A stretch of DNA of 34,743 bases. It comes from Cyanobacteria bacterium SIG28 (lineage in GTDB: Bacteria > Cyanobacteriota > Vampirovibrionia > Gastranaerophilales > Gastranaerophilaceae). Position 1 is the first letter of the stretch. The number at the start of each line of letters is the position of its first letter. The notes below the pieces were generated by a model. The model made no database searches. It was given only the letters and a program-made list of their open reading frames with translations, and had not been told where the DNA came from. A program made the translations under genes and the position numbers. The DNA is taken from the NCBI GenBank assembly GCA_015152525.1, contig SUTU01000019.1, positions 1 to 34,743 of the forward strand, read 5' to 3'. Of this stretch, positions 3,045-34,743 are shown in pieces.

Positions 3045-4382
3045 ATGGGAATGGCAGCATCACAGTCAAGGTATTTAGCCTTAACAGCCAGAAAAACAAA
3101 TACTGAATACGAAGGTCAACAAATTAACCAAGCAAGAACCGCTTTGGCAAACCAAAGTGCAAATTTGTTTAATCGACTTTTGGATTTAGAAGTACCTGTA
3201 GCTCCTAAAACAACTGATTATACAGAAGTTCAATACTCATACACTGATGGTATTAATGAATCCGTTTTGGAAAGTTGGCAGCAATTATCTTCTGCTGATC
3301 CAAGTTACAATTATATAGTTAACCACTATTATTATGCTGATGTTTATACGGGCGCAAGAAAACTGTTAGAAAACCCTCAAGTTACAGAAAAAAAGGATTT
3401 ATTATCAGAACGTATTAATGATAGAGATCCACTACCTGTAGTTACATACGAGCGTGATGCCACAGGCAGAATAACTTCAGTGATAATAGAAGGTGCTAAC
3501 GGCACTGTTCAAAAATCAATATACACACCGATAAGTTCTCAAAGAATGGATACAAAATTAGAAAACTCTTTGAGAGATTTTGAAGAAGCTGTAGGCTTAG
3601 CACAAACAGATGGTGTTTTAAGCACTGATAATGTGTACGGTTGGCAAGATTCAACCGGAACTTGGCACTTTATGCTTCAAGAAGATATCGACAAAACTGA
3701 TCCGGTAGATTATGTTACTCAGTACGCACCGGGTTTTGTAGGTAATTGTGAATTAACAGAACTGGCTAATTTTACTGATGATCAAGCGGCAGCTCTTGCT
3801 CAAATACTAAGGGATTGCCCTGAATCAAACATGAGTCAATACTTGAGTTTCAACGATGAAAGAGAACTATTGTATGACGGTAAAGGCATTTATACTTTCC
3901 AAATGAACGGTCAAACATACTTCACTAATAAAACAGATTTATACAACAGTATGCAGACATACGATGAATATAATAAGCCAATTGAAAACCAAGAAAGATT
4001 AGCTTATTACAATGCAAACTATATAAGAACAAAAATCGAGGAAACAAATAAAGCACTCATAGAAACTGATGAAAACGGTAGATTCAAGTCGGTTAGATTT
4101 GATGATGACAGTGTTATTTATTCATTAAATACAGAAACTGTTACAGATGATGCTGCATATCAAGATGCTATGAATGAATATAATTATAAAGTTCAACAGT
4201 ATGAAAAAACTATTGCAGATATAAATGCAAAAACTTCTATAATTCAAGAAGAAGACAGAACCTTAGAATTACGTTTAAAACAACTTGATACAGAGCAAAA
4301 AGCATTAGCTACAGAAATGGAAGCTGTTCAAAAAGTTATTAAAGATAACGTTGAAAAGACATTCAAAACATTCTCTGATTAA
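3045..4382 (+). CDS. Coiled-coil hypothetical protein of lineage-specific type
   Basis: The 445-aa protein has no function I recognise. It begins MGMAASQSRYLALTARKTN and continues with an Asn/Gln/Ala-rich helical stretch (EGQQINQARTALANQSANLFNRLL), reminiscent of the N-terminal helices of flagellar axial or type III-secreted proteins. I recall similar starts in several gut Melainabacteria proteins but cannot verify this. The middle is acidic and Tyr-rich. The last 70 residues or so form a probable coiled coil rich in Glu, Lys and Gln. There is no signal peptide or membrane segment. The start is fixed by TAGGAG 9 nt before the ATG. The S66 carboxypeptidase gene follows after 31 nt and may be co-transcribed. 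Confidence 0.7.
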   Translation: MGMAASQSRYLALTARKTNTEYEGQQINQARTALANQSANLFNRLLDLEVPVAPKTTDYTEVQYSYTDGINESVLESWQQLSSADPSYNYIVNHYYYADVYTGARKLLENPQVTEKKDLLSERINDRDPLPVVTYERDATGRITSVIIEGANGTVQKSIYTPISSQRMDTKLENSLRDFEEAVGLAQTDGVLSTDNVYGWQDSTGTWHFMLQEDIDKTDPVDYVTQYAPGFVGNCELTELANFTDDQAAALAQILRDCPESNMSQYLSFNDERELLYDGKGIYTFQMNGQTYFTNKTDLYNSMQTYDEYNKPIENQERLAYYNANYIRTKIEETNKALIETDENGRFKSVRFDDDSVIYSLNTETVTDDAAYQDAMNEYNYKVQQYEKTIADINAKTSIIQEEDRTLELRLKQLDTEQKALATEMEAVQKVIKDNVEKTFKTFSD

Positions 4383-24722: not shown

Positions 24723-24857
24723 AATACAAAATCCCTTCTCAATATATTTACATAATAATATACTATTTAACATTTTTCCAGTTAGTAAATTTTATAAATT
24801 TTAGTAAAAATATTATTAATTTTGTGTAAAGAATTGTAAAAATTTCGTGTAAAATTC

Positions 24858-24884
24858 TAAAGTTTCTAAAAAAAATGCCGATAA
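24858..24884 (+). promoter_or_regulatory. Sigma-28 (FliA/SigD) type promoter, consensus
   Basis: TAAAGTTT (24858-24865), exactly 11 nt, then GCCGATAA (24877-24884): both elements equal the textbook sigma-28 consensus. The start codon used by the gene lies 29 nt downstream. An in-frame ATG at 24875 overlaps the -10 box and so cannot be translated from this promoter. Confidence 0.8.
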
Positions 24885-24913: not shown

Positions 24914-25357
24914 ATGGCAGACACAAATTTTAATTTTAATCATGTTGTTCAAAACTCTGCAAAGTATCTTGAAAAAGATTACACTGCAGCAGGCCACGCT
25001 GCTGAACAAATGGAGCAAGCAGAAAAAGTGCGTGTTGAACAAGCTATAAAATTTGAATCTGCGGGTTTTTTAGGAATAACTTTAGGTCAAAAATTAACTG
25101 AAGCAGGCATTGGCAAACGTGTTGCTCAGCAACTTGTTGATACAGCAACAGGTGCTGTTGGTAGAGTAGTAAGTCCTCTATCTGAATATTTGGACAAATA
25201 CGAAAACGTATTTAACGGCACAATTCAAGCAGAATTTAACGGCGATGCTTACCAACTATACTCAGCAAGCAACGCAATGGCAGAAGAAGCATTAAATACA
25301 CCAAATATTGTAGGACTCGGACCAAGCAGAGCGCCAAAATTTGTTATGGATATGTAA
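24914..25357 (+). CDS. Hypothetical protein under a sigma-28-type promoter
   Basis: The 147-aa protein begins MADTNFNFNHVVQNSAKYLE and is mostly helical, with an Ala/Glu/Gln-rich stretch (AAGHAAEQMEQAEKVRVEQA). A Gly-containing middle follows (GITLGQKLTEAGIGKRVAQQ). It has no signal peptide, membrane span or Cys. No family is recognised. The start is chosen because it follows the promoter and has GGGA 9 nt upstream. Small helical proteins under FliA-type control are often export substrates or chaperones of a flagellar-type system; that role is inference only. It converges on rplT across a strong terminator. Confidence 0.65.
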   Translation: MADTNFNFNHVVQNSAKYLEKDYTAAGHAAEQMEQAEKVRVEQAIKFESAGFLGITLGQKLTEAGIGKRVAQQLVDTATGAVGRVVSPLSEYLDKYENVFNGTIQAEFNGDAYQLYSASNAMAEEALNTPNIVGLGPSRAPKFVMDM

Positions 25358-32233: not shown

Positions 32234-32353
32234 AAAACCTCCCTCTGTTTTTGAATTGAAGTTATTTTTCAAATGAAATTGAAAGTAAATTCTTTTCTCT
32301 TAAATAGTAATTGTAAAATTTTTCTTTAAATGTAACAATTTATCCAAAATTAT

Positions 32354-32380
32354 TAAAGTTTTTTCAAAAAATGCCGATAT
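32354..32380 (+). promoter_or_regulatory. Sigma-28 (FliA/SigD) type promoter, consensus
   Basis: TAAAGTTT (32354-32361), exactly 11 nt, then GCCGATAT (32373-32380). It is a full match to the sigma-28 consensus, and GCCGATAT is the form typical of SigD. The start codon of the EF-hand gene is 37 nt downstream. Confidence 0.8.
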
Positions 32381-32417: not shown

Positions 32418-33692
32418 ATGGTAGATATAAACTTAAGTTCTTTTCAAAAACACATAGATGTATTTAAGAATCTTATAAAAACCTCTGGAGAGACAAGCAT
32501 TGATTCTCAAACTTTTCAAGAAAAAGTAACAAAAGATAGAAGTATTTTTGAAATGCTTGATCAAAACTGGGATGGTAAAATTTCTGAAGATGAAATAAAT
32601 ACTGTTTTAGAATCTGATTCAAATAATGATGGAATCGTAACGGGAAAAGAATTAGCTTGCATGAATCAAATGAAATTTTTTGCAAAAAGAACTGTTGATA
32701 AATGGTTTACATTAGATGTAAATCGAGATGGGCATTGGAGTAATGTTGAAGAAAAATTAGGCGATCATAGAATGTGGGGTGATGCATCAACTTACACTGG
32801 TTTAGATGCAGCAATGTCAAATGAACAGCTTGCACAATTATATGAAATAAAAGAAACTATTAATGATCCAAATAATGAACAATTAGAACAATGGCTTAAT
32901 GGTTGGTTGGAAGATTTAAAGCAAACAGCAAAAGACCAATATGGTGTTGAATTAAATGATAAACAAATAATTGTTTTGAAAAAAGAATATATAAAACAAC
33001 TTAACACATGGTTATTTAAAAATGGTGATAATGCATCTGGTGATGCACCATTATACAATTCTTTAAATTGCACAGCATATACAAGACTTATTACAACGGA
33101 ACAAACTGTATCGTGTTGTGGTGGAGATATTGTTCCTCCACCAGCATCTCCTGTTAAAAATGCCTGCTCACCTGTGTTCTCAAGTTTGGAATATGATGGT
33201 GCTTCTAATAATGCTGAAGAAGTTAAAAATAGATTAGCTTGGGCTATGTTTAAAACTCCTCCAGCTGAATTATTGTCTACAGACGAAGATGCAATGACGG
33301 TTTGGGATAATATGACTGATGAGCAATACTCAGAATATCATCAACAATATTTAACTATGAGAAATATGACAGCAAATGATTTTAGAGAGTTATTAAAACC
33401 TGAAAATGAACAACAAAGAGTTGATTTTGAAAAGAATTCATCAATGACAGTTCAACAAATTGTAGATTACATTGACATTGTGGAACAACAAATCGGAGTT
33501 GGAAATTTTGATAATGAAGACTGGTCTGTAAATGCAGAGCAATATAGTAAAATTATACTTGGCGTTAACGGTACCGTTGGCGATGAAGATAAATTACAAG
33601 GAAAAACAAGAGCTGATATCCCTGAAAATCGGCAAAATCTATTAAGGTTTTTAGAAGAAAAGGGCTGGTTATACGAACAATTTAAACCTTGA
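32418..33692 (+). CDS. EF-hand protein under a sigma-28-type promoter
   Basis: The 424-aa protein has three canonical calcium-binding loops: DQNWDGKISEDE (48-59), DSNNDGIVTGKE (67-78) and DVNRDGHWSNVE (100-111). Asp/Asn at positions 1, 3 and 5 and Glu at 12 are all present. The rest (about 115-424) is unrecognised, mostly polar and helical, with a Cys pair and Pro-rich patch (SCCGGDIVPPPAS) near the middle. There is no signal peptide or membrane span. With the promoter, this suggests a calcium-responsive or calcium-stabilised product of a flagellar-type regulon, possibly exported by a type III route; that is inference. The SD is weak (GAGTAG). Confidence 0.75.
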   Translation: MVDINLSSFQKHIDVFKNLIKTSGETSIDSQTFQEKVTKDRSIFEMLDQNWDGKISEDEINTVLESDSNNDGIVTGKELACMNQMKFFAKRTVDKWFTLDVNRDGHWSNVEEKLGDHRMWGDASTYTGLDAAMSNEQLAQLYEIKETINDPNNEQLEQWLNGWLEDLKQTAKDQYGVELNDKQIIVLKKEYIKQLNTWLFKNGDNASGDAPLYNSLNCTAYTRLITTEQTVSCCGGDIVPPPASPVKNACSPVFSSLEYDGASNNAEEVKNRLAWAMFKTPPAELLSTDEDAMTVWDNMTDEQYSEYHQQYLTMRNMTANDFRELLKPENEQQRVDFEKNSSMTVQQIVDYIDIVEQQIGVGNFDNEDWSVNAEQYSKIILGVNGTVGDEDKLQGKTRADIPENRQNLLRFLEEKGWLYEQFKP

Positions 33693-34417: not shown

Positions 34418-34743
34418 ATGACTCAAAGGAATTCAGCATTGGAAGTATATTTTTACAAAACAAGCTCTGGTAATGAGCCTGTTAAAGAGTGGTTAAAATC
34501 TTTACCAAGAGAAGATATGCGTACAATTGGCTTTGATATCAAAACTGTGCAGTATGGATACCCAATAGGAATGCCATTAACAAGAGTTTTACACGGAACT
34601 GGTGGATTAGAGGAAGTGCGTTGTAATATTTCTAATGGTATTGCAAGAGTAATTTTCTATGTTGAAAACGATACAATGGTGCTATTACATGGCTTCATTA
34701 AAAAATCACAAGAAACACCTAAAAAAGAATTAGATGTTGCAAT
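34418..34743 (+). CDS. HigB/RelE-like toxin, Gp49 family (3' end outside window)
   Basis: The visible 108 codons read LEVYFYKTSSGNEPVKEWLKS...YGYPIGMPLTRVL...GLEEVRCNISNGIARVIFYV...MVLLHGFIKKSQETPKKEL. This is the phage-derived Gp49-like family (PF05973) of mRNA-cleaving toxins, with the basic C-terminal F-x-K-K-x-x-x-T-P motif. The family's XRE antitoxin gene is normally directly downstream, outside the window. Two starts are possible: the ATG, which would be nearly leaderless, or TTG at 34439 with AAGGA 8 nt upstream. Lies beside repeats, consistent with mobility. Confidence 0.85.
   Translation, partial: MTQRNSALEVYFYKTSSGNEPVKEWLKSLPREDMRTIGFDIKTVQYGYPIGMPLTRVLHGTGGLEEVRCNISNGIARVIFYVENDTMVLLHGFIKKSQETPKKELDVA

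Follow-up and report, generated by a model that had tools for sequence, protein, structure and literature searches.

A predicted sigma-28 promoter with an HLR1-type half-site precedes an EF-hand protein gene and belongs to a candidate dispersed regulon in a Gastranaerophilales bacterium

In Campylobacter jejuni a set of non-flagellar proteins, the Feds, is made under sigma-28 alongside flagellin, and their secretion is reported (PMC5223770). In cyanobacteria the response regulator RpaB binds a site termed HLR1, and activates from a position of about -66 to -45 relative to the start of transcription (PMC13421787). Both rpaA and rpaB are reported as retained in the group considered here (PMC5877343), and complete flagellar sets are reported for some members of the order Gastranaerophilales (PMC4040986; PMC5877343). 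In vitro, calcium induces the folding of a Vibrio protein that has the NopE proteins, which are type III-secreted, among its relatives (PMC6506597). These systems are compared below with a locus in a 34,743-nucleotide stretch of DNA from Cyanobacteria bacterium SIG28, referred to as the window, in which a predicted sigma-28 promoter stands ahead of a gene for an EF-hand protein, P0001.

The promoter occupies positions 32354-32380 of the forward strand and reads TAAAGTTT-TTTCAAAAAAT-GCCGATAT, with the -35 box at 32354-32361, a spacer of 11 and the -10 box at 32373-32380; it fits the pattern TAAAGTTT-N11-GCCGATAA, the final base being T instead of A. The 424-aa reading frame at 32418 lies 38 bp away. 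The original prediction of a consensus sigma-28 promoter here, and of two perfect sites in the window, is confirmed by exact letters at 32354-32380 and 24858-24884; 100 dinucleotide shuffles give a mean of 0.00 exact sites where the window holds two. Scored with a matrix built from 17 other sites of the same genome, themselves scoring 30 to 69, the 32354 site reaches 49.4, compared with 12.3 for the 95th percentile of the best score per 3-kb background stretch. Chance was considered as the origin of this site and of the regulon promoters and is rejected on the shuffle and reversed-pattern controls. Judged by its letters, 32354-32380 reads as a genuine sigma-28 (FliA) promoter that would drive the 424-aa EF-hand gene.

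The site is one of many in the genome, which was searched over 1.89 Mb in 26 contigs. Exact TAAAGTTT-N11-GCCGATA occurs nine times and WAAAGTT-N12-GCCGWTA 14 times, the reversed-pattern control for the latter giving none, and nearly all genes behind the 14 sites encode orphan proteins. A FliA-type sigma factor is encoded at C15:39191 (232.4 bits against a cut-off of 189.6), and a search for type III export genes, suggested earlier as a check, found flagellar FlhA and FlhB on contig C26, both above curated cut-offs. The 14 exact sites, their mostly orphan products and the presence of FliA, FlhA and FlhB support the earlier suggestion of a dispersed regulon, and at the level of sequence the idea of a sigma-28 regulon appears right. 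Counting against the regulon account, a recognisable sigma-28-like site was found in the scans used at only one of the eight flagellin-domain genes of this genome. Across the class, nearly every genome examined has FliA; it is absent from sampled members of two families (f8 and f13). Two side observations concern the flagellar gene set: one flagellin-domain protein (L036, G000:C16:11447) has a reading frame of 2085 aa, and free-standing proteins at G000:C5:21029-22051 (L062) and G000:C17:92752-93411 match FlhA over its C-terminal, cytoplasmic part only.

A second element, which the original prediction did not mention, is common to most of these promoters. Fourteen aligned sites were picked on the sigma-28 core alone and the element then emerged: WWTGTAAM, at seven or more of eight matches, is found at exactly -25 in 10 of the 14 and at exactly -35 in eight, with the opening base of the -35 box as reference point and with offsets discovered by inspecting these same sites, while other offsets average 0.22 and do not exceed 2. 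Both half-sites occur together in seven sites, where shuffles give 0.0026. Independent genomes repeat the geometry: of 25 loci measured, retrieved with a pattern that permits 27-33 bp, 24 have the first TGTAA at 32-33 bp. The 18-bp tandem, WWTGTAAM-N2-WWTGTAAM, is the reverse complement of HLR1, KTTACAWW-N2-KTTACAWW. If transcription starts 7 bp past the -10 box, the predicted position of the tandem is about -68 to -51. Exact HLR1 occurs 42 times in the genome and once in the control. Could the element be a mere A/T-rich UP element whose likeness to the motif is compositional? In its favour are the A+T-rich genome and an A tract that likewise stands before the -35 box, but the tandem has conserved G and C positions and a period of exactly 10 bp, shuffles produce almost none, and the excess of full motifs over the control is large, so that we strongly disfavour this reading and give it next to no weight.

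At the 32354 promoter the proximal half-site, AATGTAAC at 32329-32336 on the forward strand, matches WWTGTAAM at 8/8 and lies at -25 from the -35 box, and the distal half, with 4/8, is degenerate (32319-32326), in contrast to the tandem TGTGTAAA-GA-ATTGTAAA upstream of the second promoter (24823-24840, forward strand), whose halves score 7/8 and 8/8. Because the distal half is poor, RpaB control of the 32354 gene is less secure than that of the group. A sigma-28-type core stands behind 13 of the 42 exact HLR1 sites and is lacking behind 29 (L131, L135, L136, L121 and L130 are examples). Some 10 of these 29 show a second class of promoter about 20 bp on, consisting of (C)AATTTT or GAAATT, about 15 bp and ACTTTATA, which probably belongs to another sigma factor. 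Three of the eight flagellin genes also have exact HLR1 ahead of them (G000:C14:62977, C6:52559 and C16:12475), with no recognisable sigma-28 core. A literature search of limited scope found no account of a sigma-28/HLR1 composite; the composite is the new part, its ingredients, a sigma-28 regulon and the RpaB site, each being known.

A candidate reader of the tandem is encoded in the genome. Three regulators with OmpR-type DNA-binding domains are present (C7:69639, C8:12324 and C9:98673), and only the response regulator C7:69639 passes the RpaB equivalog cut-off, with 354.2 bits against 330; the two others score 207 and 210. The presence of three such domains leaves room for an OmpR-family regulator other than RpaB, as does the report that RpaA and RpaB share some target promoters in cyanobacteria (PMC13421787), although the equivalog scores single out C7:69639 and the motif is the one published for RpaB; we regard a different regulator as rather unlikely. 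Because of the motif, its position and the presence of an RpaB orthologue, we infer activation of RpaB type: the orthologue likely binds these promoters, and a regulator of this kind would probably occupy the tandem and activate sigma-28 RNA polymerase from upstream.

The composite pattern is present in all genomes of the genus examined, with three to 31 copies each and about none in the control. It is rare in most other genera of the family, reaches a few to a dozen copies per genome in family f6 of the same order, and was not found in the other sampled families of the class. Among the genomes searched, relatives of the EF-hand protein occur in 15 others of the genus and in one of a neighbouring genus, a count that includes some fragments and EF-hand-only matches; several carriers are named Candidatus Gastranaerophilales, some of them from gut samples. 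Conservation of the promoter ahead of orthologues, on which the original prediction was staked, holds in part. Seven of 12 aligned members retain a sigma-28 site, directly upstream of the gene in G000, G007, G010 (one mismatch) and G044 (a spacer of 12), as well as in G045 and G055 (two mismatches, yet higher than any shuffle); in G034 the site heads an operon of two genes. The remaining five have a sigma-70-like promoter or no recognisable one, which counts against the account.

P0001 is encoded at 32418-33692 on the forward strand, and the claim that it is a 424-aa protein with three intact EF-hand loops is borne out by translation of the reading frame and by the loops themselves, all of which conform to the canonical 12-residue pattern DxDxDGxxxxxE. 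Loop 1 (DQNWDGKISEDE, residues 48-59, 32559-32594) has D48, D52 and E59 invariant across the 12 aligned members, loop 2 (DSNNDGIVTGKE, residues 67-78) lies at 32616-32651, and loop 3 (DVNRDGHWSNVE, residues 100-111, 32715-32750), with D100, G105, N109 and E111 invariant, is the EF loop kept in all 12. P0001 falls below the Pfam curated cut-off for EF-hand_5 (22.3 against 25.9 bits) and just under those of other EF-hand models, and EF-hand_1 matches every aligned member (best E 4.3e-9) on an E-value basis rather than by curated cut-off. An AlphaFold2 model (pLDDT 87, pTM 0.80) contains an EF-hand pair fold, residues 4-71 aligning to such pairs with Z up to 5.7. Model and structure comparison thus support an EF-hand domain in P0001.

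The rest of the protein is a conserved, confidently modelled C-terminal domain of 313 residues (32751-33689, forward strand) with an invariant CCGG at 233-236; modelled alone it reaches pLDDT 86 and pTM 0.85. Foldseek, given the full model or the domain alone, returned no known fold for it; the domain alone has no match at E < 0.001 in the PDB or a viral library, and the best VIA match has Z 3.1, which is not proof of a new fold. PDB sequence relatives of P0001 cover essentially the EF-hand region only. Three other assignments were considered and rejected. Weak EF-like strand-helix units in the C-terminal part align to a calcium-dependent kinase with no more than Z 3, which is insufficient; membership of XopAW (NCBIfam NF041410) fails at 27.8 bits against a cut-off of 120; and MIIA autocleavage is set aside by the absence of a GDPH motif from the sequence.

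The second promoter, TAAAGTTT-N11-GCCGATAA at 24858-24884 on the forward strand, precedes a 147-aa orphan protein, P0002 (MADTNFNF...; 24914-25357, forward strand), whose true start is taken as the ATG at 24914 because the mechanical start of the reading frame, 24875, falls within the -10 box. Orthologues of P0002 adjoining rplT retain both composite promoter and gene. In five relatives (L145, L154, L157, L159 and L161) an orthologue of the EF-hand gene, a fragment in L159, lies a few genes from the P0002 orthologue beside rplT, and the latter retains the sigma-28 site and upstream tandem, with one core mismatch in L161. The two proteins had been called unrelated, and in sequence they are, but by synteny their genes are ancestral neighbours, which accounts for two sigma-28 sites within one window. 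About 0.26 sites per window would be expected, and since the genome has 14 the occurrence of two in 35 kb is only mildly unusual. At the far end of the window, 34418-34741 holds a Gp49-like (DUF891) gene, of a family that includes HigB-type toxins, which runs off the end.

By a simple hydropathy measure, one of 21 regulon products examined has an obvious Sec signal, one other has a hydrophobic N-terminal segment, and 19 have neither. The set includes an EF-hand protein with a weak LysM match and another product that pairs an EF-like loop with a weak SLT match, both matches below curated cut-offs. Nine paralogues share a conserved start, MGMxxSQAR, a variable middle and a conserved coiled coil at the end, an architecture that resembles that of flagellar axial proteins; seven of the nine carry the composite promoter, and the member in the window, at 3045-4382 on the forward strand, has no recognisable one. 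Searching the PDB with the sequences of three further regulon members returned no informative match. EF-hands were also considered as a general mark of the regulon, and this was rejected, since of seven EF-hand genes found by the pair model only two have sigma-28 sites; a third regulon protein (C19) has one EF-like loop as judged by eye. Many proteins (L066, L067 and L117) have in common a short motif near the N terminus that closes with F-x-G (NPTFKG, KPSFQG, KISFNG, NVSFSG) and may serve this lineage for sorting or export.

The simplest common denominator of these products would be export by way of the flagellar apparatus. The product with a Sec signal and the one with a hydrophobic N-terminal segment count against that reading, as does a clearly cytoplasmic member, an HD-GYP protein, which shows that cytoplasmic signalling proteins belong to the regulon. 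P0001 could accordingly be a cytoplasmic calcium sensor or buffer, made with flagella from a real sigma-28 promoter and never exported, the more so as no export signal is provable in it and its N-terminal EF pair resembles calmodulin-like domains. We consider this unlikely, though deserving of serious attention, as the regulon consists mostly of orphans without known enzymatic domains, the MGMxxSQAR paralogues look like axial proteins, and two products have peptidoglycan-domain matches, albeit weak. It is very improbable that P0001 is an effector aimed at a host and injected by a second type III system of non-flagellar kind. Such a system might be signalled by a second, diverged full-length FlhA/SctV-like gene (L061, G000:C15:97431-99407) with a FliH/SctL-like neighbour, but this gene scores better as FlhA than as SctV and falls under both curated cut-offs, and its assignment to the needle type is equivocal; the XopAW score that might favour an effector is far below cut-off and confined to the EF-hand region.

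The explanation we favour, and think probable with considerable room for doubt, combines these elements, its promoter steps being well supported by the site and motif counts. FliA would transcribe the EF-hand gene from 32354-32380 as part of a dispersed, genus-wide regulon whose promoters couple a sigma-28 core to a tandem of TGTAA units that is of HLR1 type, has its centre near -60 and is read by an RpaB-type regulator. Mostly orphan products without Sec signals would be made when the flagellum is made, and their most likely role, as with the Feds, would be export through the flagellar type III apparatus. Inside the cell the EF-hands of P0001 would be loose and lack calcium, and beyond the membrane they would bind it and fold.

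More broadly, a regulator that served photosynthesis of old may have come to control proteins linked to the flagellum and possibly exported. We advance only tentatively the wider reading that, in a sister lineage without photosynthesis, a composite of fixed geometry wires RpaB, the master light-response regulator of cyanobacteria, to the sigma factor of the flagellum, and that RpaB there serves an expanding set of exported, partly calcium-dependent orphans. Such wiring would suggest a concrete role for RpaB in cyanobacterial relatives that never see light, and would link EF-hand calcium binding to the flagellar programme. In each genome of a gut lineage that is common but poorly cultured, the sequence signature marks a few dozen orphan genes as likely linked to the flagellum.

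Comparison with described systems delimits these proposals. For the Feds, sigma-28 control is part of the published description, where here the promoter is read from the DNA; no homology is established, Fed secretion is reported while export of the regulon products is our inference, and the published passage on the Feds describes no second upstream regulator motif. With XopAW only the EF-hand region of P0001 is alignable (residues 38-115), the rest being uncovered. NopE1/2 and VIC_001052 combine a calcium-binding EF-hand-like motif with type III secretion and calcium-induced folding (PMC6506597), whereas P0001, a protein predicted from its gene, has canonical EF-hands and lacks GDPH. The cyanobacterial RpaB/HLR1 regulon shares with the one described here an identical 18-bp tandem motif, an RpaB orthologue and a similar predicted distance from the start, but there the targets are photosynthesis genes, whereas here the motif is coupled to sigma-28 cores in a non-photosynthetic, flagellated lineage.
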